Shown here one piece after another: positions 2,548 through 23,800 of a DNA stretch of 46,120 nt. This stretch comes from Spirochaetales bacterium. Its GTDB lineage: Bacteria; Spirochaetota; Spirochaetia; DSM-2461. Each line of letters begins with the position of its first letter. Positions within the stretch are counted from its first letter, which is position 1. The notes beneath the pieces were generated by a model. That model did no database searches. It was given only the letters and a program-made list of their open reading frames with translations, and was not told where the DNA came from. The DNA lies in assembly GCA_028532905.1 (NCBI GenBank), contig JAQQAM010000128.1, positions 1 to 46,120 of the forward strand, written 5' to 3'. A program made the position numbers and the translations under genes.

Positions 2548-2733
2548 ATCTGCTGTATTATGTGCCTCCCCTCTTCCATCCTGTCAAGGAAGAATATATC
2601 CCGCAGACTGGAAATTCAAAAATCGTTAGAAAATCACAAAAAACAAAAATAAATTCAAAAGATTCAAAATCGCCAGGTTCGGGATTGTGGCTTTACCATG
2701 GGCTTAAGTTAAATAATCCAAAGGAGATTTTCA

Positions 2734-3666: not shown

Positions 3667-3693
3667 TTTCAGCAGCTGATTGATTCAATAAGG

Positions 3694-3723
3694 GGCTGCC
3701 CTTCAGCGGGCAGCCTTTTTTTA
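3694..3723 (+). terminator. Intrinsic terminator/attenuator hairpin between the binding-protein and ATPase genes
   Basis: GGCTGCCC-TTCAGC-GGGCAGCC (perfect 8-bp stem) followed by a run of 8 T. Confidence 0.8.
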
Positions 3724-3762
3724 AAAACTGTTTATCAAGGAATACCAAGTAAGGAGTTTCAG

Positions 3763-5274
3763 GTGAATAAGGATAATATCCTGCTTGAACTGAACAAAAT
3801 ACGAAAAGAGTACCCCGGTGTACTGGCACTGGATGATCTGAGTCTCTCTTTCAGAGAAGGCGAGGTTCATGCCATCTGCGGTGAGAACGGTGCCGTAAAA
3901 TCGACTCTCATCAAAACTGTTACCGGTGCCATCAGACCCACTTCCGGCGAGATGATTTATGCGGGTGAAGTGGTTGATCACCAGAGTCCCATTGCCTCCA
4001 TGAATGCAGGAATTTCCTGTATTTATCAGGAGTTCAACCTCATTTCCGAACTGACAGTGGCTGAAAATGTATTTTTCGGCAGAGAAATCATGAAAAACGG
4101 TTTCATCGACTATGCCGCTATGCAGGAAAAAACCAGGGAAATTCTGGTTGATCTGGGTGTGGACATTGATCCGAAGCAGCAGGTCAAGGAACTGACGGTC
4201 GGTTTTCAGCAGATCGTAGAGATAGCCAAGGCCCTCAGCCAGAATGTCAGAATACTGATTATGGACGAACCCTCCGCTCCCCTGACAAACAATGAGCTGG
4301 AATATCTTTTCAAAATTGTAAAAAAACTTAAAAGCCAGAATGTGACGGTGATCTATATCTCCCACAGACTGGAGGAAGTATTTGAACTGGCCGACAGGGT
4401 CAGCATTATTAGAGACGGACAATACATTTCCACCCTGGAAATTAAAGATACAAACAGAGATGAACTGATTCATCTTATGGTCGGAAGAGAACTGGGAAAT
4501 GACTTTCCTGAAGACAGCTGTGAAAAGGGAGATGTGGCTCTCAAGGTTGAAAACCTGACCACTTCCCTCCTCAAGGATATCAGCTTTGATGTGAGAAAGG
4601 GAGAGATTCTCGGACTGGCAGGACTTGTGGGGGCAGGACGGACCGAAACCGCCCGGGCTGTCTTCGGCGCCGATCCCATTGAGAAGGGAACCATAACCCT
4701 CCTGGGGAAAGAGGTGGTCATCAAGAACCCTGGTGATGCTATCAACAAGGGAATCGGACTGATTCCCGAAGACAGAAAACAGCACGGTATTCTGGCTCAA
4801 TTGAGCATAAAAAAGAATATAAGCTTCAGCTCTCTGGGAACCTTTGCCAGGGGACTTCTGATCAACAGTAAAAAAGAGACGGAGCTCACCAGGGGAATGA
4901 AGGACAAACTGCGCATCAAAGCCCCCACCCTGGACGTACCCGTCAGCTCACTGAGCGGCGGAAACCAGCAGAAAGTGGTTCTCTCCAAGGCTCTGATGAC
5001 CGATTCGGACGTTCTGTTCTTCGACGAGCCCACCCGGGGAATCGATGTGGGAGCCAAACAGGAGATCTACCGGCTTATGAGAGATCTGGCGGCCGAAGGC
5101 AAAGCCATTGTGATGATTTCTTCGGAAATGCCCGAACTCATCGGAATGTCAGACAGAATCATGGTTCTCTGCGAAGGAGAGCTGGTCAAGGAGCTGGCCC
5201 CCGAAGAGTACAGCCAGGAAATCATATTAGAATACGCCTCAGGAGGAAGTAATAATGAAATCGCCCGCAGCTGA
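3763..5274 (+). CDS. Sugar ABC transporter ATP-binding protein (RbsA/MglA-like, tandem ABC domains), GTG start
   Basis: 503 aa; two ABC domains, LSGGNQQKVVLSKAL in the second, DEPTRGID; RBS AAGGAG upstream. The first Walker A reads GENGAVKST instead of GENGAGKST. Confidence 0.93.
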   Translation: MNKDNILLELNKIRKEYPGVLALDDLSLSFREGEVHAICGENGAVKSTLIKTVTGAIRPTSGEMIYAGEVVDHQSPIASMNAGISCIYQEFNLISELTVAENVFFGREIMKNGFIDYAAMQEKTREILVDLGVDIDPKQQVKELTVGFQQIVEIAKALSQNVRILIMDEPSAPLTNNELEYLFKIVKKLKSQNVTVIYISHRLEEVFELADRVSIIRDGQYISTLEIKDTNRDELIHLMVGRELGNDFPEDSCEKGDVALKVENLTTSLLKDISFDVRKGEILGLAGLVGAGRTETARAVFGADPIEKGTITLLGKEVVIKNPGDAINKGIGLIPEDRKQHGILAQLSIKKNISFSSLGTFARGLLINSKKETELTRGMKDKLRIKAPTLDVPVSSLSGGNQQKVVLSKALMTDSDVLFFDEPTRGIDVGAKQEIYRLMRDLAAEGKAIVMISSEMPELIGMSDRIMVLCEGELVKELAPEEYSQEIILEYASGGSNNEIARS

Positions 5275-6247
5275 AACTATTAAAACGGCAGATAAAGGCA
5301 CTCTGGACAGGAAGAAAATCGTTGATGGTCTCTCCAGATTTGCCATCCCCATTGCACTGGGAGTTCTGATTGTCATTTTTTCAATCATGTCCAGTTCATT
5401 TCTCACAAGCAGAAACATCATAAATATTTTCCGTCAGGTTTCCATTGTGGGAATCTGTGCCGTGGGGATGACCTTTGTCATCCTTACAGGGGGTATCGAC
5501 CTGTCTGTGGGGTCGGTAATCGGCGTGGCTGTTGTTTCGGCCTCATCCTTGATGGTTGCCGGGGTTCATCCTGTGGCCGCCAGTATTTTTGCCCTGCTCA
5601 TCGGTGTGGTTCTGGGTGTGATTATCGGTTTCTTCATTAATGAAGTGGGCGTTCCCCCCCTTATCACCACTCTGGCCTTTATGACCGCCCTCCGGGGTGT
5701 TGCCTACACAACAACCAAAGGTCTGCCTGTATACGGTTTCCCCGAAAGCTTTGCCTTTCTGGGACAGGGATATATCGGAGGGATTCCCGTACCTGTGATC
5801 ATCATGATACTGGTGTTTATCGGGGGATACATCCTGCTGAACAAAACCAAATTCGGCCGTTATGTCTACGGAATCGGGGGCAATGAAGAGGCGACCCGCC
5901 TGTCGGGAATCAATGTTAAACTGACCAAATACAAGATTTACATTCTGGAATCCTTTCTGGCTTCCCTGGCGGGAATCGTACTTCTGTCCAGAGTTAACAG
6001 CGGCCAGCCCAAGGCGGGACAGGGATATGAGATGGATATCATCACTGCCGTTGTTCTGGGAGGCGTCAGTATTGCCGGAGGTTCCGGTAAGATCACAGGT
6101 GTGATTACAGGTGTTCTTCTGATGGGTGTTCTGACCAACGGTATGATCCTGATCAATGTGGATGAATACTCCCAGTGGATTGTAAAGGGTGTCGTTCTTC
6201 TGGCTGCGGTCAGTCTGGATCAGATGTCCCACCGGACCAGGGATTAA
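5255..6247 (+). CDS. Sugar ABC transporter permease (RbsC-like)
   Basis: 330 aa; multiple TM helices; 'GMTFVILTGGIDLSVGSVIG' and 'GGNEEATRLSGI' motifs of the RbsC/BPD_transp_2 family; overlaps the ATPase gene end. Confidence 0.93.
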   Translation: MKSPAAETIKTADKGTLDRKKIVDGLSRFAIPIALGVLIVIFSIMSSSFLTSRNIINIFRQVSIVGICAVGMTFVILTGGIDLSVGSVIGVAVVSASSLMVAGVHPVAASIFALLIGVVLGVIIGFFINEVGVPPLITTLAFMTALRGVAYTTTKGLPVYGFPESFAFLGQGYIGGIPVPVIIMILVFIGGYILLNKTKFGRYVYGIGGNEEATRLSGINVKLTKYKIYILESFLASLAGIVLLSRVNSGQPKAGQGYEMDIITAVVLGGVSIAGGSGKITGVITGVLLMGVLTNGMILINVDEYSQWIVKGVVLLAAVSLDQMSHRTRD

Positions 6248-6278
6248 AAGGGATATCCCTTTTTTCATAAAACTCCTT

Positions 6279-6305
6279 ATCCCCTGCCGTCGGCGGGGGA
6301 TTTTT
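6279..6305 (+). terminator. Probable intrinsic terminator after the permease gene
   Basis: ATCCCCTGCCG/TCGGCGGGGGAT hairpin followed by TTTTT. A smaller AAAAGGGATATCCCTTTT palindrome lies just upstream. Confidence 0.65.
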
Positions 6306-6354
6306 AGCAGTCAATACTGTACAGTTACTTTGTATACGACTATTATAAGCCAAT

Positions 6355-6732
6355 ATGGAAATAACAAAATACTGCAATATATTCACCCTGCCTTCAGAAA
6401 CTGCGGAGATCAAACTTCAGTTTGGTTTATTCAAACAGGATATAAACAAAAATATTAAAAGTTATATCAAACATCACGGCGGTTTATGGATCGGCGGCAA
6501 ATTCACTATTTCTGACGGACGTTTCAATTTCTCAATGAACAGTATTAACAGAACGATTCACCCTTCCGAGTCTGATCTTTCATTCTCAATGTCCGAAGTA
6601 AAATCGGTCTGGAGAGATTTCGGCTGGATCAGCGGGATTCTGAACTTTGAATTTGAAGATAAAATTGTGAAGCTGCGCTGTTTCGGAGCCAAATCTGTGG
6701 CGGAAACAATCAGTCAGGAGTACATGCTTTGA
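6355..6732 (+). CDS. Hypothetical protein, possibly GRAM/PH-like
   Basis: 125 aa ORF (LWIGGKFTISDGRFNFSMNSINRTIHPSESDLSFSMSEVKSVW...). Translationally coupled (TTGA overlap) to the next gene. Fold suggestion is weak. Confidence 0.6.
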   Translation: MEITKYCNIFTLPSETAEIKLQFGLFKQDINKNIKSYIKHHGGLWIGGKFTISDGRFNFSMNSINRTIHPSESDLSFSMSEVKSVWRDFGWISGILNFEFEDKIVKLRCFGAKSVAETISQEYML

Positions 6733-7061
6733 TCTTCTGGGGTATTCGGAAAAAAAGACTGCAGGGGGGAGCTCTGGATGAAATGCAATGCCCTGACTGC
6801 CGAAAAAGAGAACTCACAAAAAACGCAGTAATAAGATACATCCACCTGTACTGGATTCCCCTTTTCACCTTCTCAAGCAGTGCCGAACTGGAATGTGCAG
6901 TATGCGGTAAACTGATCAAAGGAAAAGAACTTGGCAGTGAGATGAAAAAGGACATAAAATCCGAACTCATTACTGCGGGACAGATCCTGTCAAAAAACTT
7001 CGGTGTACTTCTGCTGTTAACAGTCATTTTTCTTTTTGCACTTTATGTCAGCTTTTCCTGA
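6729..7061 (+). CDS. Small zinc-ribbon protein with C-terminal TM segment, TTG start
   Basis: 110 aa; FWGIRKKRLQGGALDEMQCPDC...IHLYWIPLF...LECAVCGKLI (two CxxC knuckles) and a C-terminal hydrophobic helix. The N-terminal pattern matches small bacterial zinc-ribbon proteins. Confidence 0.65.
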   Translation: MIFWGIRKKRLQGGALDEMQCPDCRKRELTKNAVIRYIHLYWIPLFTFSSSAELECAVCGKLIKGKELGSEMKKDIKSELITAGQILSKNFGVLLLLTVIFLFALYVSFS

Positions 7062-7134
7062 GTCCTGAACAAAGCCCCGCCGGGAAAACCAGAAATTGAT
7101 AGCCTGAATGCAGAGTGGATGATAGAATGGGATC

Positions 7135-8082
7135 ATGTCGTATTCCCGGCTGTTGAAATCAGCAGTGTGTATTTTCCTTTCAGTATTTCTGGTCTCCTTA
7201 TTAAGCTCATGTGAAAAGAAAGAACAGCAGAAGAGTCCGGAGGGGCTGCAGTTCTTCTACTCTCCTATGGATCTGAGCAATCCCTATTTCCGGACACTGA
7301 CAAATGGTATGAAAGACAGAGCCAACGAACTGGGTATAAGACTGACAATTTCAGACGGAGAATCCAGACCGGATAAGCAGATTCAGGACCTCGACAGGGC
7401 ACTGGAAGAGTATTACGACCTGGTCATCTGCAGTCCCCTTCAGCCGGCGGACTGCATCCCGCTTGTGAAAAAAGCCCGGGAAGCAGGGATTCCCTTTATC
7501 AATCCGAACCAGACCATTCCCGGCAGCGATGCCCATATCAATCTGGATGATTTTTCCTACGGCCGGCTGGGGGGGGTCATTGCCGGAACCTGGATATCTG
7601 AAATGCTGCCCCCCGACAGCAAGGTTCTCATTATCGGATACACCCCCATGGAGGCACTGCAACACAGAAGCCGGGGCATCAAAGCCGGCATTCTGGAAAA
7701 AGCTCCGGAAGCCGTTATTGTGGAAGAGGTCTCCGCCCTCACCCCTGAAGCGGGAATGGTGGAAACGGAAAAAGCTCTGCAGCGCCATCAGGACATACGC
7801 GTGATTGCCGCCGTGAATGATGCGGCTGCACTGGGAGCCATGACGGCGGTAAACTCCCTGGGCATCGGGACGGAGAATTTCTGCATTGTGGGCCTGGATG
7901 CCACATCAGAATACCTGCAGAGGATGGACAGCCCCGGTTCCCTGCTCAGAGGGACTGTGGACATCAATCCCTACGGGACAGGGAAGACCGTAATAGATAC
8001 GGCCATCAGGGTTCTCAGGGAAGGGCCCCTGGAAGAGACTGTTTCCATTGATATGACTCCCGTATTCTGGGACGGCCGCTGA
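7135..8082 (+). CDS. Sugar-binding lipoprotein (RbsB-like), paralogue of 2734..3666
   Basis: 315 aa; lipobox LLSSC; co-linear similarity to the first binding protein (MDLSNPYFRTLTNGMKDRANELGI vs MDLANPYFVTVTNGVKDRAAELGI; NFCIVGLDAT; GTVDINPYGTGK). Confidence 0.9.
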   Translation: MSYSRLLKSAVCIFLSVFLVSLLSSCEKKEQQKSPEGLQFFYSPMDLSNPYFRTLTNGMKDRANELGIRLTISDGESRPDKQIQDLDRALEEYYDLVICSPLQPADCIPLVKKAREAGIPFINPNQTIPGSDAHINLDDFSYGRLGGVIAGTWISEMLPPDSKVLIIGYTPMEALQHRSRGIKAGILEKAPEAVIVEEVSALTPEAGMVETEKALQRHQDIRVIAAVNDAAALGAMTAVNSLGIGTENFCIVGLDATSEYLQRMDSPGSLLRGTVDINPYGTGKTVIDTAIRVLREGPLEETVSIDMTPVFWDGR

Positions 8083-8085
8083 TCA

Positions 8086-8160
8086 ATGAAACCTTCTGTA
8101 CCGGTGAAGCCTTCTGTACCGGTGAAGCCTACTGTACCTGTGAAGCCTTCAGTGCAGTGA
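8086..8160 (+). repeat. 18-bp tandem repeat (~4 copies), in frame with the preceding CDS, encoding (KPSVPV)n
   Basis: AAACCTTCTGTACCGGTG / AAGCCTTCTGTACCGGTG / AAGCCTACTGTACCTGTG / AAGCCTTCAGTGCAG-TGA; ATG at 8086, stop at 8158-8160. Confidence 0.85.
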
Positions 8161-8165
8161 ATCAT

Positions 8166-9260
8166 TCAGCTCCAGTGGAGTAAGCGGTCCAGAATTCTCT
8201 CTTCCTCTTCATCCGATTCAGCCCCCACCCACAGGAATATTCCCTCGGGACGGACCGCAGCCATAAAATCCTCCAGTTCATCCACAGCCACATCGGCGAT
8301 CACCGGCATTCCGGCATCCTGCAGTTTTTTAAACAGGGGAACCCACTGCATAATGGGCTGGTCCTCCCCCACTCCCTGAACCCATTGAATGGCGTCAATC
8401 TCAGGAACAGAGAGAATGGAATCCAGATGATTGGCCACGCCCTTTCCATCCAGATGAAAGATATTGGTGTCCATGGGTTTGACCTCTTTCTGCAGGATGG
8501 GCAGACAGTACTCATCAAAGAGCTCATTGCCTATGAGGGCGGAAAAATCATTGCTGGGGATATGGAGTTTGCCGGCCGAAGGAATTCCCATCCAGTTGGC
8601 TGAGGGCTGACCGGCGGCACTGAGGATACTATGAAAATGATCATAAATATCCTGAAACCCCTCGGTTCCCAGGCGGATCAGCTCTTTCAGCAGGCCGGGA
8701 TCAAGATAGAAATCCATGCAGACCCTGTCATTTCCTCTCCAGGAAGCCACAAAATCCATACCCGGGTGGAGGTCGGTATACCCTACAATGTATTGTCCTT
8801 CGGCATACTGAAGAGCACAGTCGGTCATCTCTTCAATTTTTCTAAAATATTTATTGTTTTGATCCAGACGGATTTTGGACAGATCCTCTGCACTGTCTAT
8901 CACCGGATGTGTCCAGGAAGTCACTTCTCCGTATACCAGTTCCTGCCCGTTGAATGCCTGAAGAATATCCGGCCCCAGATTGGGATCAAATATGGGAAAG
9001 GTTTCACCCCGGAATAATTTGCCTTCAATACTTTTGCGGAAAGAGTCCACCTGGTATTCGGTGTCAAACCAGCGCTCCTTCAGGCCGGGCCATGTTTTTC
9101 CTCCGCTATTTTCGTGGTCAAACTGGGCATTATGCCGGTGGAAACGAACCGGTACCCGGTCAATTATCTGGTTTTCATACCAGGCTTCTATTCTCTGCAT
9201 GGACTGTTCAAAATCCGGTTTTCCTTCCAGTTCAAAACCGGACCAGTTTCCCTTTAACAT
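8166..9260 (-). CDS. Uroporphyrinogen decarboxylase (URO-D)/MtaA-superfamily protein
   Basis: 364 aa from ATG at 9260 (GGGAG RBS 6 nt upstream); 'FHLDGKGVANHLDSILSVPEIDAIQWVQGVGEDQP' and the C-terminal region resemble URO-D-fold proteins. Confidence 0.75.
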   Translation of the reverse strand: MLKGNWSGFELEGKPDFEQSMQRIEAWYENQIIDRVPVRFHRHNAQFDHENSGGKTWPGLKERWFDTEYQVDSFRKSIEGKLFRGETFPIFDPNLGPDILQAFNGQELVYGEVTSWTHPVIDSAEDLSKIRLDQNNKYFRKIEEMTDCALQYAEGQYIVGYTDLHPGMDFVASWRGNDRVCMDFYLDPGLLKELIRLGTEGFQDIYDHFHSILSAAGQPSANWMGIPSAGKLHIPSNDFSALIGNELFDEYCLPILQKEVKPMDTNIFHLDGKGVANHLDSILSVPEIDAIQWVQGVGEDQPIMQWVPLFKKLQDAGMPVIADVAVDELEDFMAAVRPEGIFLWVGAESDEEEERILDRLLHWS

Positions 9261-9342
9261 AGTCATCTCCCTTTTGCGTTCATTTGCACGCATTCAGAGT
9301 ACACCTGTTATTTACAGTGGTCAAGGGAAACATTAAAAAATG

Positions 9343-10410
9343 TTATTTCAGAAAATCAGAGAGGAGGCTCTGGACGGGTTTCAGCTCCCTGAAAAACAGT
9401 TCTGTTGCCGTCACATAATGCTCTCTTACCGGTGAGAGACCGCTTTGAATCATGGCATAAAGGATTTTAAAGGCATCAGAACCCTGTTTTTCAGGATTCT
9501 GTCCAATCAGAGCATCACAGAGTCCCTCATCCAGTGCCCGGGAGAGTTCCTCATTGTAATCGTACCCGACAAGGGGGATTCTCTTTTCTCCTTTCAGAGT
9601 CCTGAGAGCCTGTACAGCACCAAGAGAGGCGGCGGCTGTCAGTGAAATGACCCCCTGTATGGAACTGTCTGAGTACAATGCATCCGAAAGCTGCCGGGCG
9701 GCTGTATCCGCATCATCGTAACAGTAGCGGAGTACTGTTTTCTGCTCCGGATTCATACCTTTCAGAACATCCATGACACCAGAGATTCTCTGTTCGTGAG
9801 CCCAGAGTCCCCTGTAACCGCTTAAAACCAGCACGTCCCCAGAAGGACTTATTTTTTGAATCAGTTCTCCCCCCAGGCGGCCGCTCTGGTACAGATTCTG
9901 ACCCACAAAACAGCGTCTTCTGCTGCCGGGAAGGTCTGTATTAATGGTGATATAGGGAATACCCGCAGCTCCCGGCAGGGTTAATGACGGATCAAAATGT
10001 CCTGAGGGAACCAGAAGTACTCCCTTCAGACTATTCTCCTGCAGTTCAGATTTAAGAATCTTAATAAACCCTGAGGAGTCCTCGGGATTATAATGCACAA
10101 CATCCAGCTCAATCAGAGGATCATTCTGCTCAGTCACCGCCGACAGGAGACCGGCTTTCATAACATCATAAAAAAAGGACGGATGCTCGGGGAAAAGGGC
10201 AAGGATTCTGATCTTATCTTTCAGTATGGTAAAACGGGAAATTTTGTCATCGATATACCCCATGGCAGAGGCTTTATCCAGAATGGCCTTCCGGGTTTTT
10301 TCACTGATCCGCCCCCGGTTATGGATGGCCCTGTCAACGGTTCCTCTGGAGATATTCAGAGCATCGGCAATGTCCTGAAGAGTTACTTTACTGTTCTTTT
10401 TTGACGGCAC
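9343..10410 (-). CDS. LacI-family transcriptional regulator
   Basis: 355 aa; N-terminal HTH 'VTLQDIADALNISRGTVDRAIHNRGRISEKTRKAI' plus periplasmic-binding-like effector domain. Confidence 0.92.
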   Translation of the reverse strand: MPSKKNSKVTLQDIADALNISRGTVDRAIHNRGRISEKTRKAILDKASAMGYIDDKISRFTILKDKIRILALFPEHPSFFYDVMKAGLLSAVTEQNDPLIELDVVHYNPEDSSGFIKILKSELQENSLKGVLLVPSGHFDPSLTLPGAAGIPYITINTDLPGSRRRCFVGQNLYQSGRLGGELIQKISPSGDVLVLSGYRGLWAHEQRISGVMDVLKGMNPEQKTVLRYCYDDADTAARQLSDALYSDSSIQGVISLTAAASLGAVQALRTLKGEKRIPLVGYDYNEELSRALDEGLCDALIGQNPEKQGSDAFKILYAMIQSGLSPVREHYVTATELFFRELKPVQSLLSDFLK

Positions 10411-10465
10411 CCGCCTATTATACTGCCCCGCCGGGTATGGGGCAAGGCGCAGATCAGCCGGGCAC

Positions 10466-12286
10466 TTACTCCTTTTTCTGCATCAAAGGCAGACTGACGG
10501 TGAAGGAGGTGTTTTCACCGGGGGTGCTTTCAGCGGTGATTTTTCCATTATAGGATTCAGCAATATGCTGACAGATGGAAAGCCCCAGTCCCGTATTGGT
10601 TTTGGTCACTTTGGTGCTGTAAAAAGGGGAAAAAATCTGGTCCAGAATATCCCCGGGGATACCGTGTCCGTTATCAATGATACTGATTTCAGCCTGGGGA
10701 AATCCTTCTTCAGACCTGTTCAGAGTACTGCGGATAATGATTTGTCCCCCCTTGAGCACCGCTTCAAGAGCATTGCTCAGGAGGTTCAGAAACAGCTGCT
10801 TCAGTTTATTTTCATGAGCCTCTATTTCAATATTGACTGGACAATAATCCTTAATCAGCTGGATTTTATTCTCCTTGAATTTGTGGCCCAGGAGGATGCA
10901 CAATTCATCCAGCAGATCATGCAGATCAAGGGATCTCAGAGGACGGACACCCACCCGTGAAAAAGAGAGAAGGCTGCTGATGATCTCCACGATTCTGGTC
11001 AGTTCCGACTGAATATGATTGACGCAGTCTCTGGAGTTCTCAGGAAGATCATCCATCTGCATCAGGTCCAGGTAATTCTGAATAATCCCCAGGGGGTTGT
11101 TCACTTCATGAGCCACACCCGCGGCCATTTCGGCGGTGGATACGAATTTTTCAGCCTGCTGCAGATACTCCCTGGTCTCATAGTCGGAGGAGATATCTTC
11201 CAGAAAGACAAGCATCCCGTGCCCCGGATCACCCTCCTCCCCCAGAGGGCTGACTCTGATTTTCAGCAGCTTGTTTTTTACGAACTTGAGTTTCTGCCAG
11301 AGCCCGGCTTTCCGTTCTGTGATGATCTTCTCAATGTCCTCAGCATTCTCCAGCTTCAGATCCCTGAAATACTCATTTAAGGGCTGCCCCTTGATCTCTG
11401 CCGGATCACACTCCAGGATTCTGGAAGCCGCCGTATTCAGATCCTGTATCTCATTGCCGGGAGAAATAATGATCAGTCCCTGGGGTATGTCATTGATGAT
11501 CCGCTGATCGTAGCGGGACATAAGCAGAACCTCATGATCCACCTGCCGGGAAGACTCATCCCCGTCGATGGCAAAACTGAAGGCCAGGTTGACCAGTCTG
11601 GTTCTGTCCACCCGGCTGACCTCTTCTGTCCCCCTCCTGTGTCCCTCCTTAAGAATGGTCACCCTGTCGGAGATTCTGAATATTTCATCAATATTGGAAC
11701 TGACATAAATGACCCCTTTATCCTGAGAGCGGCATTTCCTCAGCATTCTGTAGATATGCTGCTGCTCCTCGGGGGAGGTTTTCTGGGCGATTTCGTCGAG
11801 AATCAGGATATTGGCTTCCTGTGCCAGGACTCTGAGAAACGAGAGAACCTGCCGCCGGGCGGGAGTCAGAGCGGTCACCCTGGTAAGGGGATCTTCATCA
11901 AAACCGTACAGATCAAAAAGATCCTGACAGCGTTTCAAATACTCTTTTCTGACTTTACCGGAAATGAGACCCGGAAACCTGCCCAGATAGACATTGTCAA
12001 AAAGAGTACCCGTCGGAATAAGAGTTTCACTCTGGTAGACCATACCGATTCCCTGCTGAACCGATGAGGACGGGGTGAATCCGTTAAAACTTTTTCCGTT
12101 GATCCGGATGCTCCCCCCCTGTAGCATCAGGGAACCACTCAGAATTTTGACAAGGGTAGATTTACCTGAACCGTGATCACCTGTCAAAGCATGGATTTCA
12201 CCGGGGTAGAGATCAAAGTCGATCCCCTTCAGAGCCGGAACATGACCGAAATTGTAACGGATATTCCGCATTTCAAGGATGGGCAT
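10466..12286 (-). CDS. Fusion protein: AraG/RbsA-like ABC ATPase domain + PAS + histidine kinase (HisKA, HATPase)
   Basis: 606 aa; residues ~1-235 ABC-type (ALKGIDFDLYPGEIHALTGDHGSGKSTLVKILSG, ANILILDE); PAS (IINDIPQGLIIISPGNEIQDLNTAASRIL); HK H-box 'MAAGVAHEVNNPLGIIQNYLDLM', N-box 'LFLNLLSNALEAV', G-boxes 'DNGHGIPGD' and 'TGLGLSICQHI'. No obvious TM segment. One uninterrupted ORF. Confidence 0.93.
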   Translation of the reverse strand: MPILEMRNIRYNFGHVPALKGIDFDLYPGEIHALTGDHGSGKSTLVKILSGSLMLQGGSIRINGKSFNGFTPSSSVQQGIGMVYQSETLIPTGTLFDNVYLGRFPGLISGKVRKEYLKRCQDLFDLYGFDEDPLTRVTALTPARRQVLSFLRVLAQEANILILDEIAQKTSPEEQQHIYRMLRKCRSQDKGVIYVSSNIDEIFRISDRVTILKEGHRRGTEEVSRVDRTRLVNLAFSFAIDGDESSRQVDHEVLLMSRYDQRIINDIPQGLIIISPGNEIQDLNTAASRILECDPAEIKGQPLNEYFRDLKLENAEDIEKIITERKAGLWQKLKFVKNKLLKIRVSPLGEEGDPGHGMLVFLEDISSDYETREYLQQAEKFVSTAEMAAGVAHEVNNPLGIIQNYLDLMQMDDLPENSRDCVNHIQSELTRIVEIISSLLSFSRVGVRPLRSLDLHDLLDELCILLGHKFKENKIQLIKDYCPVNIEIEAHENKLKQLFLNLLSNALEAVLKGGQIIIRSTLNRSEEGFPQAEISIIDNGHGIPGDILDQIFSPFYSTKVTKTNTGLGLSICQHIAESYNGKITAESTPGENTSFTVSLPLMQKKE

Positions 12287-12291
12287 CCCGG

Positions 12292-13638
12292 TCAGACCTC
12301 AATTCCCAGTTTTTTGACCTTGTTGTAAAGGGTCCGTCTTGTGATTCCCAGAAGATCGGCGGCCTTGCTTCTGTTGCCGCCGGTTCTCTCCAGAGCATCC
12401 AGAATAATCTCTTTTGTAATACTGTCGGAAGCTGATTTAAGAAAAACGCCGTCGTCCTGTGAGTCATAGCCCTTGTACTGTTCCGGCAGAAGACCGGTGG
12501 TGATCTCATCCTCATCACAGAAGATAACCATTCTCTCTATGGTGTTTTTCAGTTCTCTGATATTACCGGGCCAGTCATGCTTCAGAAAAAGAAGTTCCGT
12601 TTCCTGATCAAATCCGCCTATGGTCTTTCCGTATTTCTGATTGAAATCCGACAGAAAAAGTCGGGCCAGAGGAAGGACATCTTCTTTTCGGGAGCGGAGA
12701 GCCGGCAGCTCCACCTGAATCACCGACAAACGGTAAAACAGATCCTCCCTGAAGAGACCCTCCTGTATTCTTTCTTTCAGCTTCCTGTTGGTTGCCGCAA
12801 CAATTCTCCCTTCCATTTTTCTGGTGTTGTGGGAGCCGATCCGCTCAAACTCCCTCTCCTGAAGCACACGCAGAAGTTTGGCCTGGGTTTTCAGGCTCAT
12901 TTCTCCGATTTCATCCAGAAAGAGAGTTCCCTTTCCCACAGCCTCGAATTTCCCTGACCGGGCTTCCACCGCATCCGTAAAGGCCCCTTTCTCATGACCG
13001 AACAGCTCCGATTCAAGGAGTGTTTCAGGGATGGCGGCACAATTGAGTTTCATAAAGGGTTGATCCGAGCGGGTGCTTTCCGAATGAATCAGAGAGGCGG
13101 CCAGTTCCTTTCCTGTTCCCGATTCCCCGGTGATAAGCACCGGTGCATCCGTGGGAGCGGCTTTTTTCAGAAGAGAAAGCTTCTCCCGCATAACCGGATT
13201 GAAAGTAAGGATATCAGATGATCCGTCAGGGGGTATTGTCTCCGAGAGTATACCGTCATTTGCCCCCCCTGAAATCTCTGCCGGGAGGAGACGCTCAATC
13301 TCTACGGACATTTCCGAAAAACGGACAGGTTTTTCAAAGAAGTTGACCGCACCGAAGCGCATGGCTTTAACAACATTATCCACAGAGGCATATCCGGAAA
13401 CCATAATGATGGGAAGTTCAGAGTATTCGGTCCTGATCAGACGGATCAGCTCGATCCCCGACATACCCGGCATTTTCAGATCAGTGATCACCAGAGCAAT
13501 GTTTTCAAGTGTAAGAATACCCATAACCTTCTCGGGATCTGTTGTGAAAAGAGGATTATATCCGCGGGCTTTCAGAAGTTTTGACAAGCTGATGCACAGC
13601 TGTGTTTCATCATCAACAATCAGGATCTTGGGCTTCAT
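12292..13638 (-). CDS. NtrC-family sigma54-dependent response regulator (REC-AAA+-Fis HTH)
   Basis: Translation from ATG 13638: MKPKILIVDDETQLCISLSKLL (REC), GESGTGKELAASLIH, ELFGHEKGAFTDA, GTLFLDEIGEMS (AAA+), C-terminal 'ILDALERTGGNRSKAADLLGITRRTLYNKVKKLGI' (Fis HTH). The ORF-track start at 13731 adds an unlikely 31-aa extension over upstream palindromes. Confidence 0.93.
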   Translation of the reverse strand: MKPKILIVDDETQLCISLSKLLKARGYNPLFTTDPEKVMGILTLENIALVITDLKMPGMSGIELIRLIRTEYSELPIIMVSGYASVDNVVKAMRFGAVNFFEKPVRFSEMSVEIERLLPAEISGGANDGILSETIPPDGSSDILTFNPVMREKLSLLKKAAPTDAPVLITGESGTGKELAASLIHSESTRSDQPFMKLNCAAIPETLLESELFGHEKGAFTDAVEARSGKFEAVGKGTLFLDEIGEMSLKTQAKLLRVLQEREFERIGSHNTRKMEGRIVAATNRKLKERIQEGLFREDLFYRLSVIQVELPALRSRKEDVLPLARLFLSDFNQKYGKTIGGFDQETELLFLKHDWPGNIRELKNTIERMVIFCDEDEITTGLLPEQYKGYDSQDDGVFLKSASDSITKEIILDALERTGGNRSKAADLLGITRRTLYNKVKKLGIEV

Positions 13639-13710
13639 ATAACCCGATAGTACAGGGGAATTGCAGAATATGACAAGAAAAAAAGAAAATATCACAAAGA
13701 GAGCGGGTAA

Positions 13711-13775
13711 AGTGGGAATTATTTTTCCCACTCCACTGGGAAAGGGGTATAATGATTTCCCAGATATTTCCCACT
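13711..13775 (+). promoter_or_regulatory. Candidate upstream activator (enhancer) sites for the NtrC-type regulator
   Basis: Five TTTCCCA(C/G)-type half-sites in ~65 bp: AGTGGGAA (13711), TTCCCACT (13725), CTGGGAAA (13736), TTTCCCAG (13756), TTTCCCACT (13767), forming two inverted repeats. Confidence 0.65.
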
Positions 13776-13862
13776 TTCTGATTTTGTAATAAAACAGGAA
13801 TAATTGTATATATTCATTACAGTAAAAGATTTAAAGAAAATATCTGTTTAAAAATGATACAT

Positions 13863-13878
13863 TGGCACGCATTTTGTG
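13863..13878 (+). promoter_or_regulatory. Candidate sigma54 (-24/-12) promoter of araFGH
   Basis: TGGCACGCATTTTGTG against consensus TGGCACG-N4-TTGCW: perfect -24 element, -12 is TTGTG (GT rather than GC). About 36 nt upstream of the araF ATG; the divergent gene encodes a sigma54 activator. Confidence 0.65.
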
Positions 13879-13913
13879 TTGGTATACACAAACACGTAAA
13901 AGGAGTTTCTATT

Positions 13914-14918
13914 ATGAAAAAAGGCTTAATCATAGCCCTGTGTCTTACAATTTTCATGGGTACCTTTGCTTTTGCAAACGGTGCACAGGAAGGCGGATCT
14001 GATGAAGTAAAAATCGGATTTCTGGTAAAAATGCCCGAAGAACCCTGGTTCCAGAATGAGTGGAAATTTGCCCAGGAAGCCGGTGAAAAATACGGATTTA
14101 AAGTTCTTGAGATCGGTACTCCCGATGGAGAAAAAGTTCTTTCCGCCATTGATAACATTGCCGCTCAGGGCGCTCAGGGATTTGTCATCTGTACACCTGA
14201 TGTCAAACTGGGACCTGCCATTATGGCCAAAGCCAATGCAGCCGGACTGAAAGTCATGAGTGTGGACGACCGCTTTGTCGGTGCCGACGGTTCCCCCATG
14301 GAAGAGGTTCCCCACATGGGAATTTCTGCCTATGAAATCGGTAAGCAGGTTGGCTATACCATGAAAGAACAGATGGATGCCAGAGGCTGGAAACAGGAAG
14401 ACACCGGTTTTATGAGAATCAGCTTTAACGAGCTGCCCACAGCTGTGGACAGAACCAGCGGTATGACCGACGCCCTTCTGGAAATGGGTTTTGATGAGGC
14501 TTATATTTTTGAGTCTCCCGAAAAAACTACCGACACAGAAGGCGGATTCAACGCTGCCAGCATCACCATTACAAAGAATCCCCAGATCAAGCACTGGCTG
14601 ATTGGCGGACTCAATGATGAAGCGGCCATGGGCGGAACAAGAGCCTGTGAAGGAAACGGATTTGCTGCTGAAGATATCTGTGCCGTAGGAATCGGCGGTT
14701 CCGGAACAGCCACAGCCGAGTTTGCCAAGTCTGAAGTGACCGGTTTCTATGCAACCGCACTGATCAGTCCTAAAAGACACGGATACGAAACATCCGAAAT
14801 GGTTTACAAGTGGATCACTGAAGGAACAAAACCTGCAGCTACCACATGGACCACTGCTGTTATGATGGACAGAACCAACTACAAGGAAAAACTCAAAGAA
14901 AACGGACTGGAAGAATAA
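13914..14918 (+). CDS. araF: L-arabinose ABC transporter substrate-binding protein
   Basis: 334 aa from ATG 13914 (RBS AAAGGAG). Closely resembles recalled E. coli AraF: IGFLVKMPEEPWFQNEWKFAQEAG, VPDGEK-like, GAQGFVICTPDVKLGPAI, VKHWLIGGLNDEAAMGGTRACEGNGF, TGFYATALISPKRHGYETSEMVYKW. Confidence 0.9.
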   Translation: MKKGLIIALCLTIFMGTFAFANGAQEGGSDEVKIGFLVKMPEEPWFQNEWKFAQEAGEKYGFKVLEIGTPDGEKVLSAIDNIAAQGAQGFVICTPDVKLGPAIMAKANAAGLKVMSVDDRFVGADGSPMEEVPHMGISAYEIGKQVGYTMKEQMDARGWKQEDTGFMRISFNELPTAVDRTSGMTDALLEMGFDEAYIFESPEKTTDTEGGFNAASITITKNPQIKHWLIGGLNDEAAMGGTRACEGNGFAAEDICAVGIGGSGTATAEFAKSEVTGFYATALISPKRHGYETSEMVYKWITEGTKPAATTWTTAVMMDRTNYKEKLKENGLEE

Positions 14919-14937
14919 TCTGATCTGAAAACAAGTT

Positions 14938-14971
14938 CCTCCATCTGCCGGTGCCGGCAGATGGAGGTTTT
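14938..14971 (+). terminator. Strong hairpin with short T-tract between araF and araG (attenuator / mRNA stabiliser)
   Basis: CCTCCATCTGCCGG-TG-CCGGCAGATGGAGG (long perfect inverted repeat) followed by TTTTC. Confidence 0.7.
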
Positions 14972-14994
14972 CATACAAAAAAAGAGTAAAAGAA

Positions 14995-16497
14995 ATGACA
15001 GCATATTTAGAATTCAAATCTGTTTCCAAACAGTTCCCCGGAGTGAAGGCTCTGGACGATGTAACATTCTCTGTCCAGTCAGGAGAAGTTCATGGATTGA
15101 TCGGAGAGAACGGTGCCGGGAAATCGACTCTTCTCAAGATCTTGAGCGGTGCCTACTTTCCCAGCGAGGGAGCCGTTTATATCAACAGTCAGGCCATGGA
15201 TTTTCAGGGGACAAAGGATGCCCTGGATGCAGGAGTTGCCATTATTTATCAGGAACTGAACCTGGTGCCCGAAATGACTGTTGCCGAGAATCTGCTTCTA
15301 GGACACTTTCCCCGCAAAAAATCCGGATTCATCGACTTTAAAACCATGAAAGAAATTGCCAGTAAGGAGCTGAGCTACATACTGGAAGAAATAGACCCTG
15401 ATCAGAAGATCAAGAATCTGTCCATTGGTCAGAGACAGATGATCGAAATAGCCAAGGCATTACTCCACAATGCGGATATCATAGCCTTTGATGAACCCAC
15501 CAGCTCCCTTTCCGACAAAGAGACCATCCGGCTGTTTGAAATCATCAAGAACCTGCAGAAAGCAGGCAAAGCCATTATCTATGTGTCTCACAGAATGGAA
15601 GAGATTTTTAAAATCTGCAACACAGTGACCGTCTTCCGGGACGGAAAAAAAATTGAAACATTCACAGATATGTCCAAAGTAGACCATGACATACTGGTCA
15701 GCCGGATGGTGGGCCGGGATATCAAGGATGTTTACAGTTACAGACAGAGGGAACAGGGACAAACGGTTCTTGAAGTCAAGGATCTTATGGGACCCGGCCT
15801 GGCAAAACCTGCCAGTTTCTCCCTGAAAAAAGGGGAGATCCTCGGATTTTTCGGTCTGGTGGGAGCCGGACGCTCTGAACTGATGCGCCTGATCTACGGT
15901 GCGGAGAAACACAGCGGCGGCGCTTTTTACCTGGATGAAGAGCAGATGAAGATCAACTCTCCCCGATCGGCCATCGAAAAGGGAATGTTCTTCTGCCCGG
16001 AAGACAGAAAAGACGAAGGGATTATTCCCATCCGCTCTGTTAATGAAAACATCAATATATCCGTCCGGCGGCACAGCATGAAAGCGGGTCTCTTTCTGGA
16101 CAAGAAAAAAGAGAGAGAGACCACCGACAGTTTTATCAGCAAACTCCAGATCAAGACCCCTAACAGGGACAAGGATGTGGGGAGCCTTTCCGGGGGGAAC
16201 CAGCAGAAGGTAATCCTGGCCCGATGGCTGGCGGAAGATGTGAAGATCCTGATTATGGATGAACCCACCAGAGGGATTGACGTGGGAACCAAGAATGAAA
16301 TCTATCAGCTAATGTACCAGCTGACGGAAGAGGGAAAGTCCATTATCTGTGTCTCCAGCGATCTGCCGGAAGTCATGGGAGTGTCCGACAGGCTCATTGT
16401 CATGAGAGACGGTGAGATCGTAACATCATTTGAACGGGATGAGTTCTCTGAAGAGACAATTCTGAGCAAGGCTCTGCCCGACAAGGCAGAAAATTAA
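14995..16497 (+). CDS. araG: L-arabinose ABC transporter ATP-binding protein
   Basis: 500 aa; tandem ABC domains, canonical GENGAGKSTLLKILSG, SLSGGNQQKVILARWL, DEPTRGIDVGTKNEIY; located between araF and araH. Confidence 0.9.
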   Translation: MTAYLEFKSVSKQFPGVKALDDVTFSVQSGEVHGLIGENGAGKSTLLKILSGAYFPSEGAVYINSQAMDFQGTKDALDAGVAIIYQELNLVPEMTVAENLLLGHFPRKKSGFIDFKTMKEIASKELSYILEEIDPDQKIKNLSIGQRQMIEIAKALLHNADIIAFDEPTSSLSDKETIRLFEIIKNLQKAGKAIIYVSHRMEEIFKICNTVTVFRDGKKIETFTDMSKVDHDILVSRMVGRDIKDVYSYRQREQGQTVLEVKDLMGPGLAKPASFSLKKGEILGFFGLVGAGRSELMRLIYGAEKHSGGAFYLDEEQMKINSPRSAIEKGMFFCPEDRKDEGIIPIRSVNENINISVRRHSMKAGLFLDKKKERETTDSFISKLQIKTPNRDKDVGSLSGGNQQKVILARWLAEDVKILIMDEPTRGIDVGTKNEIYQLMYQLTEEGKSIICVSSDLPEVMGVSDRLIVMRDGEIVTSFERDEFSEETILSKALPDKAEN

Positions 16498-16512
16498 TAA
16501 AAAGAGGAAATA

Positions 16513-17493
16513 ATGGAAAATACAAATGCCATAAAACCGGTCAATCCTGCTGTAAAGGTCATCCGGAATCTGTGGGAAAATTCAGGAATGCTGGTTATCT
16601 TCATTCTTCTGTTTATCATACTGTCGATATTCGTCCCCTACTTCTTCACCTGGAGAAACATGATCGGTCTCGGTCTTTCCGTCTCCATGGTGGGTATGGT
16701 GGCCTGTACCATGCTGTTCTGCCTGGCTTCGGGAGACTTTGACCTCTCGGTAGAAAATATCGTTGCCTTTTCCGGTGTCACCGCGGCTGTTGTGATCAAT
16801 GCCACAGGCAGCATTTTCATTGGTGTTCTGGCAGGGGTTCTGGGGGGCGGACTGATCGGTATCATAAACGGTACCATTATCGCCAAAGCGGGAATCAATG
16901 CCCTGATCACAACTCTGGGTATGGCTCAGATTGTCAGAGGAATGGCCTTTATCGTCTCCGGCGGCAGTGCGGTGGGCATCACAAACATGGCCTTCTTCAA
17001 CCTGGGGAACGGCCAGTTCCTTGGCATGCCCAATCCCATCTGGATCACCATCATCTGTTTTGTGGTTTTCGGGGTCCTTTTGAACAACACATCCTATGGA
17101 AAAAACACTCTGGCCATGGGAGGCAATATGGAAGCCACAAGGCTTGCGGGTGTTGCCGTCGACAAAATCAAGATTATGATTTTTACGATTCAGGGAATGA
17201 TGGCCGGTTTTGCAGGAGTGGTTCTGGCTTCCAGAATGACAAGCGGACAGCCCAATACATCCATCGGATTTTCACTGGATGTTATCTCTGCCTGTGTACT
17301 GGGGGGAGTATCCCTTTCCGGTGGTGTCGCCCCCATACAGGGCGCTATTGTGGGAGTTCTGATTATGGGTACGGTTCAGAATGCCATGAACCTGATGAAT
17401 ATACCCACCTTCTACCAGTATGTTGTCAGAGGTGTGATTCTCCTGATCGCCGTATTGATAGACCGGTTCAAACAGACCAACACGAAAAACTGA
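16513..17493 (+). CDS. araH: L-arabinose ABC transporter permease
   Basis: 326 aa polytopic protein; 'CLASGDFDLSVENIVAFSGV', 'GGNMEATRLAGVAVDKIKI'; RBS AAAGAGG; follows araG. Confidence 0.9.
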   Translation: MENTNAIKPVNPAVKVIRNLWENSGMLVIFILLFIILSIFVPYFFTWRNMIGLGLSVSMVGMVACTMLFCLASGDFDLSVENIVAFSGVTAAVVINATGSIFIGVLAGVLGGGLIGIINGTIIAKAGINALITTLGMAQIVRGMAFIVSGGSAVGITNMAFFNLGNGQFLGMPNPIWITIICFVVFGVLLNNTSYGKNTLAMGGNMEATRLAGVAVDKIKIMIFTIQGMMAGFAGVVLASRMTSGQPNTSIGFSLDVISACVLGGVSLSGGVAPIQGAIVGVLIMGTVQNAMNLMNIPTFYQYVVRGVILLIAVLIDRFKQTNTKN

Positions 17494-17516: not shown

Positions 17517-17541
17517 GCCGGGTTCATGCCCGGCTTTTTTT
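17517..17541 (+). terminator. Intrinsic terminator after araH
   Basis: GCCGGG-TTCATG-CCCGGC followed by TTTTTTT. Confidence 0.8.
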
Positions 17542-17579
17542 GGGTCCGGACCTTATGGATACTGAAAAAAGGAGAGATT

Positions 17580-18749
17580 ATGAACAATATTGAAAGACTG
17601 ACAGCGACGCTTCAGGGCCGGGAAACCGACCGGATTATGACCTATGACCTTGTGGACAACACGGAAGTACTGAAAGCCTACGGCGGTTATAATGATGAAA
17701 AAAAATACAGCCCCGAAGAACTGATGGAAATCAATGTCAAAGCCTTCAAAGGAATCGGACTTGATATCACCCGGGGTACCCATGATCCCGTCGATCACTG
17801 GATGCGTCATAAGGTGGACAACTGGATCCGCTTTATGGGAGTCGATCCGGCCAACTGGCTGGTGGAACAGGGGGGCGATACAGCCTGGATTTCCAAAAGA
17901 CCCTTTGACGATCTGACAGGGCTTGAAAAAAACCTCCCCTCCCTTCCCCGTGAGGATGAGATCAGGGAATGGTACAGTCCCTTTATCAGAGAGACCACGG
18001 CCCTGTTCAATTCCTATGACAGAGTCATCATAGGAGGGGTGGAAGGTCCCCTGTGCGATGCCTATACCTATGTGGATCTGGAACTCTTCTCCCTGGTCCT
18101 TTTTGATGCTCCTGAACTGATAGAGCATATTATGGACTGCACCTGTGCCTACTCAGAGGCTATAGCCAGAATATACAGTGAAAACGAAACCGCCCCTGTA
18201 CAGTTTATGGGTGAAGATATTGCCGGCTCAACGGGCCCCATTTTTTCTCCTTCCATGATTGAAGAGCTCTGTCTGGAACGGTGGCAAAGAATCGCCGCCC
18301 CCATCCGGGAGAAGGGAGGAACTTTTATCTTTCACACCGACGGAAGATACGGGCCTCTTCTGGACCTGATTCTGGGAAAGGATAAATTTAATGCTCAGGC
18401 TCTGAATCCCATTGAACGCTGCGGATGCAATGATATATTTGAGATCCATCAGGCCTGGCCGGAGACATACCTGTTCGGAAATGTGTGCTGTGAGGAGACC
18501 CTGCCCTACGGAAACAGGGCGGATGTGGAAGATGAGACTCTGGAGCTCATAGAAAAGGCAGGTGCAGACAGAAAAATATTCATAGGCTCTTCCAGTGAAG
18601 TCCATGAACTGATTCCTCTGATCAATATTGAAACCATGTACAATACGGTTCATGAGTACGGCAGCTATCCCCTGGATCTGGACAGAATCAGAGGGAGACG
18701 GCGGGAAATCGCTTCAAAAAGGAAAGTCCGGAAAGACCTTCCTCTCTGA
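17580..18749 (+). CDS. URO-D-superfamily protein
   Basis: 389 aa from ATG 17580 (RBS AGGAGA); MNNIERLTATLQGRETDRIMTYDLVDN..., 'GGVEGPLCDAYTYVDLE', 'FIFHTDGRYGPLLDLIL...DIFEIHQAWPETYLFGNVCCEETLPYG', typical of URO-D-like methyltransferase-fold proteins. Confidence 0.8.
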   Translation: MNNIERLTATLQGRETDRIMTYDLVDNTEVLKAYGGYNDEKKYSPEELMEINVKAFKGIGLDITRGTHDPVDHWMRHKVDNWIRFMGVDPANWLVEQGGDTAWISKRPFDDLTGLEKNLPSLPREDEIREWYSPFIRETTALFNSYDRVIIGGVEGPLCDAYTYVDLELFSLVLFDAPELIEHIMDCTCAYSEAIARIYSENETAPVQFMGEDIAGSTGPIFSPSMIEELCLERWQRIAAPIREKGGTFIFHTDGRYGPLLDLILGKDKFNAQALNPIERCGCNDIFEIHQAWPETYLFGNVCCEETLPYGNRADVEDETLELIEKAGADRKIFIGSSSEVHELIPLINIETMYNTVHEYGSYPLDLDRIRGRRREIASKRKVRKDLPL

Positions 18750-20627: not shown

Positions 20628-20827
20628 ACCGGAATCTCCTCTACCCTCTCTATTCTAGTTTCAGCACAAATAAATAGCAACTGAATCAGAATATAATCCA
20701 TCCGACAGGAAGATTGTCCATTTCTGATTTCCCGAAGCCGGATGTAAACTTGTAATCAAAATCAGGAATCCGGGATCTGTTTTAAAAGACACCCGGCAAT
20801 ACCGGTACTCCGGTAAAAGGATTGAAC

Positions 20828-23800
20828 ATGAATGCCAGTGTAAAAGAGACAACTGTTGTCATACCGACCTATCCGGCAGGTCCCAAAGAAAAAAATCCCC
20901 TGTTTCTGGAAAAAAGGGTGTATCAGGGTTCAAGCGGTTCCGTCTACCCCTATCCGGTGATTGAATCAGTGGGACGGGAGAAGCAGAATCAGGAGTGGAA
21001 GGCTCTTATTCTTGAAAACAGATATTTGAAAATAATGATCCTCCCGGAACTGGGCGGACGGGTGCAGATGGCCTATGACAAGACGAATGACAGCCATTTC
21101 GTCTACTACAACCAGGTGATCAAACCGGCACTGGTAGGACTCACGGGTCCCTGGATTTCAGGGGGAATAGAGTTCAACTGGCCCCAGCACCACAGACCGG
21201 GAACCTATGATCCCACAGACTACAGAATAACAGAGAATGAAGACGGCAGCGCCACCGTCTGGATCGGAGAACTGGAGAGGATAAGCCGGACCAGAGTCAC
21301 AACGGCCTTTACCCTGCAGCCGGACAAGGTGGTACTGGAAATTGAAGCCAGACTCTATAACGGATCATCAGCCCCGAAAACCTTCCTCTGGTGGGCCAAT
21401 CCGGCGGTGAGTGTGGGAGATGACTACCAGTCCATATTCCCCCCCGATGTCCATGCGGTGATGGATCACGGTAAAAGGGATGTCTCCACATTCCCCATTG
21501 CCACAGGCACCTACTATAAGATGGACTACTCTGCAGGGGTCGATATCAGCCGTTACAAAAACATCCCTGTCCCCACAAGCTACATGGCCTACCATTCGGA
21601 TTATGACTTTATGGGCTGCTATGATCACGGAAAGAAAACAGGGATGCTTCACATAGCCAACCATCATCTGGTTCCGGGTAAGAAGCAGTGGACCTGGGGG
21701 AACGGGGACTTCGGAAAAGCCTGGGACCGGAACCTGACCGATGAAGACGGCCCGTATATAGAACTGATGACAGGAGCATTCACAGACAATCAACCCGATT
21801 TCAGCTGGCTCCAGCCGGGGGAAGAGAAGGTATTCCGCCAGAACTTCCTACCCTATAAGGATCTTCCCACTGTAGACAATGCCTCAACCGAGGCGGCCCT
21901 GTCTCTGGATCTTTCAGAATCAGAGATCAGCTGCGGCGTGTATGTCACCTCTGTAATGCAGAATCTGGAACTGGAACTCCGCTGCCGGGGCGAAGTGATC
22001 CTGTCAAAATACTTGTCCATGACCCCCGAAGCCTCTGTTTCAATCTCAGCGCCCCGGCCTGCGGGAACAGAGGAAACAGATTTTGTTCTGGTCCTGAAAT
22101 CCGAAGGGAAAGAGATTCTCAGGGCCTGGAAAGAGGGGGACACTGCGGATGACATCCCCGAACCCGCCTCAGATCCGGGAATGCCCGAAGAGATCGGTTC
22201 CGTGGAGGAACTCTACCTGACGGGTCTGCATCTGGAACAGTACAGACACGCCACCCGCAACCCCGAAGATTACTACCGGGAAGGACTGAAACGGGACCCG
22301 GGAGAGAGCCGCATCCTCACAGCCATGGGAAAAAGAACTCTTGAAAAAGGGAATTTCCCGGCAGCAGAGGAGTACTTCCAAAAAGCAGTGGCCCGGCTGA
22401 CCCGCCGGAACCCCAATCCCTATGACGGAGAAGCCCTCTACCATCTGGGATGGACCCTGCGCTACCGGAACAGAGACGATGAGGCTTATGAAAAATTCTA
22501 CAAGGCTGTCTGGAATGGAGCCTGGCAGGGAGCCGCCTACACCGAGCTGGCCCGAATATCCGTGAGCCGGGGAGATTATGAACAGGCCCTGCTGGAACTG
22601 GATCGGGCTCTGGCGGCAGGAGCCCATAACAGAAAGGCCCTTCACCTGAGAGCCCTTGTTTTCAGACTGACAGACCGCCCGGATGAAGCGGAAAAGGCAG
22701 TGAAAGATCTCCTGGAGATTGATCCCCTGGACTACGGCGGCTGGTATGAAAACCATCTTCTGAAAGGGCAGACCCCGGCGTCGGAAAAGCAGTTCACAGA
22801 TGTGATTAGAGACAATGTGCATTCCCGGCTGGAATTGTCTCTGGATTATATCCTCTGCGGAGAATACCGGGAGGCAGCGGCCCTGCTCACAGCCGGAGGC
22901 GCTGAGTCTGAAAGTGCCTATGCCCTTCTCAGATACTATATTGCCTACTGTTTTAAAAAATCGGCTGATGCCGGACAGGGTGAATACAGGGATTGGCTGG
23001 ACAAAGCCGCAGCCGCTTCCCCTGACTACTGCTTCCCCAACAGAATCGAAACCGTCATGATTCTGGAGGAACTGAAAAAGGATGCACCAGAAGACGGATT
23101 TATCCCGTACTATCTGGGGAACTTCTACTACTTTAAAAGGGAGTATGCAAAAGCCGTGGACCTCTGGAAGGACTGTGCCGACAAAAAGCCTGATTTTCCG
23201 ACGGTCAGAAGAAATCTGGCCCTGGCCGCCTACAACAAGGAGGGGAAGGTCTCCTATGCCGGAAAGCTCCTGGAAGATGCCTTTTATCTGGATACAGAGG
23301 ATGCCCGGGTGATGTTCGAGCTGGATCAGTACTACAAAAAGGAGGGCCGTTCTGTGGATTTCAGGCTGAACTTCCTGAATGAACATCAGCCAAATGTCCG
23401 GAATAGGGACGACCTGATCATAGAAGAACTGACCCTCCTGAACCTGACGGGCAATCATGAACAAGCTCTGGATATAATGAATCATCATCAGTTTCAGCCC
23501 TGGGAAGGGGGGGAAGGCAAAGTGTCATCCCAGTATGTCCGTTCCCTGATTCTGATGGCTCTGGACGCCTACGGCAGGGGGGATTTTGAAAAAGCCGGTT
23601 CCTTTCTGGAACAGGCGGGGGTCTACCCCCCCCATCTGGGAGAAGGTAAACTGGATACCGTCACCGACAATGAACTGGAGTTCCTTAAAGGGGAAGTCCT
23701 GCTGGCGGAAGGGAAAAAAGAGGAAGCCGAAAAATGGTACAGGTCGGCAACCGGAGGAGAACAGATCCCCGCGTCTGCCATGTATTACAACGACCAGTCC

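Follow-up and report, generated by a model that had tools for sequence, protein, structure and literature searches.

A predicted sigma54 promoter and a putative two-component switch with an ABC-ATPase-like input domain beside an arabinose importer operon of a spirochaete

Is an arabinose importer operon of a Spirochaetales bacterium transcribed from a sigma54 promoter, and, if so, which regulator drives it and what signal does that regulator receive? The question comes from a sequence-only reading of a 46,120-nucleotide stretch (contig JAQQAM010000128.1 of GenBank assembly GCA_028532905.1; hereafter, the window), which placed a -24/-12 element directly upstream of an araF-like gene and a sigma54 activator gene in divergent orientation next to it. 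In Escherichia coli, araFGH is controlled by AraC, CRP, and sigma70. The binding protein, the ATPase, and the permease of the E. coli AraFGH system all match the importer encoded in the window; here, in contrast, a predicted sigma54 promoter and a two-component switch adjoin the importer.

The importer genes lie on the forward strand and encode an AraF-like L-arabinose-binding protein (13914..14918; E value of 1e-99 to the solved structure 4kzk and ~1e-98 to other solved arabinose-binding proteins), an AraG-like ATPase with two nucleotide-binding domains (14995..16497; 786 bits, cut-off of 689), and an AraH-like permease (16513..17493; 489 bits, cut-off of 378). The earlier reading of the operon as an arabinose importer is thus borne out by curated models or solved relatives, and the closest relatives of either kind predict that the importer is specific for L-arabinose. 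The next gene in the same direction encodes a URO-D/MtaA-like protein (17526..18749, forward strand; identified by domain and curated models); this gene order is kept in the nearest orthologous locus, L036, and we infer that the gene is part of the araFGH operon. The divergent operon on the reverse strand consists of a response regulator gene (12292..13638) followed by the gene for a histidine kinase of 606 residues (10466..12286). Behind the kinase gene are those for a LacI-type regulator with a sugar-binding domain (9343..10410, reverse strand; domain search) and an uncharacterised protein without a Pfam match (8166..9293, reverse strand), both kept in L036.

The candidate promoter of the araFGH operon is TTGGCACGCATTTTGTG (13862..13878, forward strand). 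Its core, TGGCACGCATTTTGT at 13863-13877, has the -24 GG at 13864-13865, followed by N10 and the G at 13876; the -12 dinucleotide is GT (13876-13877) rather than the consensus GC, a consensus that is not absolute. Direct reading of the letters agrees with the earlier description in the -24 box, the GG-N10-G spacing, and the GT at -12. The element is located ~36 nt 5' of the araF start codon (ATG at 13914), which is preceded by AAGGAG at 13900-13905. A loose sigma54 match carries little weight alone, because the whole window contains 4 matches to the consensus with up to 2 mismatches, versus 8.4 expected by chance. The TGGCACGCATTTTGT site is the sole one-mismatch match in the window and the single match there to a strict degenerate sigma54 pattern. 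A weight matrix scan of the 46 kb, which had been proposed as a check, ranks the araF site first at 16.0 bits, with the runner-up at 12.1 bits; this matrix is our own approximation of the published general sigma54 consensus and was not fitted to these loci. Among 45 such sites of related loci, the base after the -12 G is C in 40 and T in 5, so that GT at -12 appears to be a tolerated minority variant that does not exclude the site.

What raises the araF site above chance is its conservation, with 17 of 17 positions kept in the nearest ortholog and, in most related loci, the top-scoring sigma54 site at the corresponding position. The proteins encoded in L036 are 82% (regulator), 92% (binding protein), 93% (permease), and 94% (ATPase) identical to those of the window. 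In the intergenic region, the sigma54 17-mer is identical at 17/17 positions and the half-sites of an upstream repeat array at 35/35, with 64% identity from the array to the promoter, 74% upstream of the array, and 50% from the predicted start to the ribosome-binding site. This array (13711..13775, no strand assigned) is a candidate activator-binding region, recognised as a hexamer cluster and by its conservation. It consists of five TGGGAA/TTCCCA half-sites (13712-13718, 13725-13731, 13737-13743, 13756-13762, and 13767-13773), arranged as two inverted pairs and one additional half-site, and lies upstream of the -24 box at a distance of ~90-150 bp, ending ~90 bp short of it. It is the densest cluster of the TGGGAA hexamer in the window, with 5 of the 52 copies falling within 62 bases. 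A more distant ortholog, L037 (64% identity in the regulator), carries GTGGCATGTTAATTGCA at the equivalent place and a degenerate array, and no array was seen in the more distant loci that were read, which gives a footprint of two close orthologs and a degenerate form in the third (L037). A genome search for further TGGGAA-N-TTCCCA dyads returned six other places; in the 3 kb read, none of them had a convincing sigma54 site, and a wider regulon is therefore not seen.

That the sigma54 match is fortuitous and araFGH is transcribed from a sigma70-type promoter, e.g., TTCCCA-17-TATAAT at 13725-13753, is highly unlikely: this sequence does match 10 of 12 positions in a promoter scan, and the loose sigma54 consensus shows no enrichment across the window, but the -35 part of the sequence falls in a half-site of the array, most related loci have a sigma54 site at the corresponding position, and the TATAAT becomes TGTAGT in L036 (4 of 6 positions kept, versus 17 of 17 in the sigma54 17-mer); the site was rejected because of this unconserved -10. 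Separately, the palindrome TGTGTTGGTATACACA (13875-13890) overlies the predicted start region and could have been a repressor operator; it is not conserved in the nearest ortholog and was rejected in that role.

The divergently encoded protein was found by domain search to combine a receiver, a sigma54-type AAA+ domain, and a Fis-type HTH domain, in agreement with its earlier description as a sigma54 activator; it belongs to the NtrC family of response regulators and is presumed to be an activator. Its sigma54-contact loop reads GAFTDA in place of GAFTGA. A GAFTGA-like motif is present in 33 of the 34 regulators of the set, and 9 of the 34 have the GAFTDA variant. The best curated match of the regulator is the AtoC model and that of the kinase body is the AtoS model. 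The genome also encodes RpoN (194 bits) with an intact RpoN box, ARRTVAKYR, which settles the presence of rpoN, another check that had been suggested.

In related spirochaetes, the same arrangement, as judged from gene content and predicted sites, adjoins dozens of sugar importers. Relatives of the kinase were detected in 24 of the 61 genomes searched, and in nearly all of the 40 regions taken around them, a regulator-kinase pair lies beside a sugar ABC importer. In 35 regions, an importer operon could be recognised, and these were used to record the position of the single best sigma54 site per region, the target being the segment from -300 to +100 of the first importer gene. The best site fell within this target in 29 of the 35 regions, which are related and not fully independent, against 0.44 expected by area; 100 column-permuted matrices applied to the same 35 regions gave a mean of 0.53 and a maximum of 3. 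Fourteen further regions from other genomes had their best site at the importer operon in 12 cases, one of which (L111) is nearly identical to L059; the exceptions are L120, with none, and L121, where the site precedes a gene for an ice-binding-like protein. Because of this conservation across dozens of loci, sigma54 control of araFGH is very likely, and the promoter proposed from the sequence alone stands as a strong prediction. The comparison adds three features that are absent from that earlier reading, namely the upstream array, the fusion of an ABC-ATPase domain to the kinase encoded next to the activator, and the recurrence of this mode of control at sugar importers of the group. A search of the phylum, with three candidates scored per genome, found the hybrid kinase in at least 17 of 394 genomes. 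No further hybrid kinase was found in the named genomes, where the Rectinema match is an ordinary importer ATPase without an adjacent site, and a search of plasmids for the hybrid kinase matched importer ATPases only.

The same genome provides a control. Of the 30 RbsA/AraG-like importer loci retrieved from it, 6 lie beside a regulator of this kind, and in all 6 the operon start carries a site, scoring 12.4-16.7 bits; five of them include a kinase of the hybrid family and one an ordinary HAMP kinase. One of the five was found through its sigma54 site alone, and its kinase gene is cut off by the contig end. In the other 24 importer loci, a score above 12 bits occurs in two, both times within annotated genes. 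This distribution also bears on the identity of the activator. The sigma54 activator domain matches 23 places in the genome, so that some activator other than the divergent response regulator could act at araFGH; we consider this very improbable, since the divergent layout with the repeat array between the genes is conserved in L036, and importers of the same genome that lack an adjacent activator also lack sigma54 sites. With good confidence, then, the site at 13862..13878 is predicted to be a sigma54 promoter driven by the divergently encoded regulator.

Two observations belong with these loci. In L106 (G000:C63:29000-47000), positions 1597-9830 contain an importer with a regulator of the same kind and a sigma54 site. 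Its kinase, a 722-aa HAMP protein, is preceded by an AraC-type gene and lacks the ABC domain, which makes this a variant with another input domain. In L121, positions 8662-17130 encode the hybrid kinase and the regulator, and then come a LacI-type gene and the genes for an FGGY sugar kinase and L-arabinose isomerase, with no importer ATPase nearby.

The kinase is a more surprising common feature of these loci than the promoter, its input domain being a degenerate copy of the first nucleotide-binding domain of the importer ATPase; it belongs to a family with many spirochaete members and several copies in a genome. According to domain search, alignment, and a structure model, it contains an ABC-ATPase-like domain (residues 1-235), a PAS domain (~261-365), a HisKA domain with His393, and a HATPase_c domain. 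ABC_tran, HisKA, and HATPase_c were found in all 20 of 20 aligned relatives, in which His393 is invariant. The protein appears to be soluble, with a maximum hydropathy of 1.24 (versus 2.97 for the permease) and no strongly hydrophobic stretch. Its structure model has a mean pLDDT of 77.8, averaging ~85 over the first 230 residues, and matches solved ABC ATPases, among them LptB, FtsE, and MalK, as well as solved kinases; the arrangement of the domains in it is not reliable because of the pTM of 0.43. In three related loci, L030, L026, and L031 (G000:C57, G049:C1, and G004:C16), one in-frame stop was counted inside several hybrid kinase matches; since the open reading frames reach almost the full length, this may be an effect at the match end, but in the G004:C16 copy the frame is shorter and misses the Walker A part.

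Comparison of the motifs in 39 kinase ABC domains and 38 importer ATPases reveals a selective pattern of retention. The kinase domains keep the Walker A Gly/Lys (38/39), the Q-loop Gln (39/39), the asparagine of the EN motif (38/39), and, in Walker B, the Asp (39/39) and the Glu (36/39). In Walker A, His replaces Asn in 36 of the 39; the Pro of DEP is found in just 1 of 39, the signature motif is degenerate, and the H-loop His is variable (25/39). The window kinase has K42 as its Walker A lysine and Q85 in its Q-loop; it has LTPARRQ for LSIGQRQ, DEI for DEP, and Ser for the H-loop His, and it has only one nucleotide-binding domain, the second being absent. Its N-terminal domain is not classed as an importer ATPase because it lacks an intact signature, DEP, the H-loop, and the second nucleotide-binding domain. 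Of the two nucleotide-binding domains of the importers, it is the first that all 39 kinase ABC domains resemble more closely, and the importer ATPase closest to a given kinase domain is its neighbour in the locus in just 2 of 39 cases. This combination is consistent with a single old fusion followed by spread and re-pairing. The distance matrix of the kinase ABC domain agrees with that of the regulator at r values of 0.74-0.83 and with that of the importer at 0.51-0.53. Other parts of the kinase agree with the importer at least as well, and this comparison, made at the level of whole proteins, does not single out a kinase-importer link.

From what is known of these protein families, the kinase would most likely phosphorylate the regulator, and the phosphorylated regulator would bind the array at 13711-13775 and loop to the sigma54-RNA polymerase at 13862-13878, driving araFGH. 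The ABC-like domain would dock on the permease or on the importer ATPase and report the presence or working state of the importer, whereby importer supply would follow the sugar flux. The proposition that the ABC-like domain is the part through which the kinase, having no membrane span, receives a signal from the importer has, in our view, evenly balanced chances; docking is plausible in that the residues for ATP binding and those on the permease side are kept, those of the ATPase cycle are lost, and the domain travels with importers.

A competing view of the sensing step, which leaves the sigma54 dependence of the promoter intact, is that the ABC-like domain senses cytosolic ATP or a small ligand, with the PAS domain carrying the specific signal. 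This has a considerable, if somewhat less than even, chance of being right: with Walker A and Walker B kept, the binding of a nucleotide could in itself be the signal, the window kinase has a PAS domain, and the tree of the ABC-like domain agrees with that of the importer no better than the trees of other kinase parts do. On the other hand, the domain descends from the first nucleotide-binding domain of importers in 39/39 cases, an importer accompanies it at nearly every locus, and the loss of the signature motif does not extend to the Q-loop Gln and the EN asparagine, which lie close to the permease-facing surface. Docking on the importer can be extended to a more general and more tentative proposal, on the doubtful side in our estimation: the first nucleotide-binding domain of an RbsA/AraG-type ATPase may have been captured by soluble kinases, each of which would dock on its own importer as a non-cycling mimic and inform a sigma54 activator directly of transport activity; such a switch would serve many spirochaete sugar importers.

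The system resembles NtrBC, AtoSC, and ZraSR in its receiver-AAA+-Fis regulator, its histidine kinase, the -24/-12 promoter, and the upstream inverted repeats. It differs from them in its predicted target, an ABC sugar importer, and in its input, for which it has an ABC-ATPase-like domain where they have a membrane domain or an ordinary PAS/GAF domain alone. Sigma54 has been known to serve the uptake of sugars by PTS, as well as ammonium, carboxylate, and other systems (PMC3162934; PMC12655853). Its role in sugar uptake is mainly known from the LevR/CelR-type control of PTS operons in Firmicutes (PMC3162934), where PTS-regulated activators act on PTS permeases, whereas an ABC importer with a phosphorelay is predicted here, in what appears to be a rule that recurs among ABC sugar importers; neither ABC nor arabinose nor spirochaetes are mentioned in the main text of that paper. 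In spirochaetes, sigma54 and its activators have been described as EbpA/EbpB-RpoN in Leptospira and Rrp2-RpoN in Borrelia, with ammonium transport, lipoproteins, and the RpoS cascade as the reported targets; the word sugar is absent from the review (PMC12655853). Outside these two genera, the sigma54 targets of the group are little known. The nearest functional analogy is found in E. coli, where MalK, the ATPase subunit of the idle maltose importer, holds the activator MalT until sugar is transported (PMC10427625); the spirochaete protein is instead a histidine kinase that includes an ATPase-like domain; it would act on a sigma54 activator, and its binding to the importer is a prediction. Searches of the open papers turned up no account of the fused kinase or of ABC sugar importers under sigma54 control in spirochaetes. 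We rate the predicted circuit as standard sigma54 two-component logic with a new target class and a new input domain. The shared kinase suggests a route by which an ABC-ATPase-like domain could serve as a two-component input, and if it does read the importer, the making of a transporter would be coupled to its use without a membrane sensor, in a form that is open to testing. The arrangement also offers a rule by which regulators could be predicted for the orphan sugar importers of these genomes.

Several other features of the window deserve mention. A second sugar importer at 775-6247, consisting of a binding protein, an RbsA-like ATPase, and a permease, is accompanied by a divergently encoded Cache-HAMP His_kinase-type sensor; it has no sigma54 site and appears to be under different control. 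A 1110-aa protein with DUF5107 and TPR domains is encoded at 20822-24154 (forward strand), adjoining an AraC-type regulator, and a 1099-aa protein encoded in L117 (984-4283), which is similar in length, also lies beside an AraC-type gene, near a related importer. Finally, URO-D/MtaA-like proteins recur beside these sugar importers: in addition to the one encoded at 17526-18749 on the forward strand, another is encoded in the window at 24137-25222 on the reverse strand and a third in L069 at 6335-7591.
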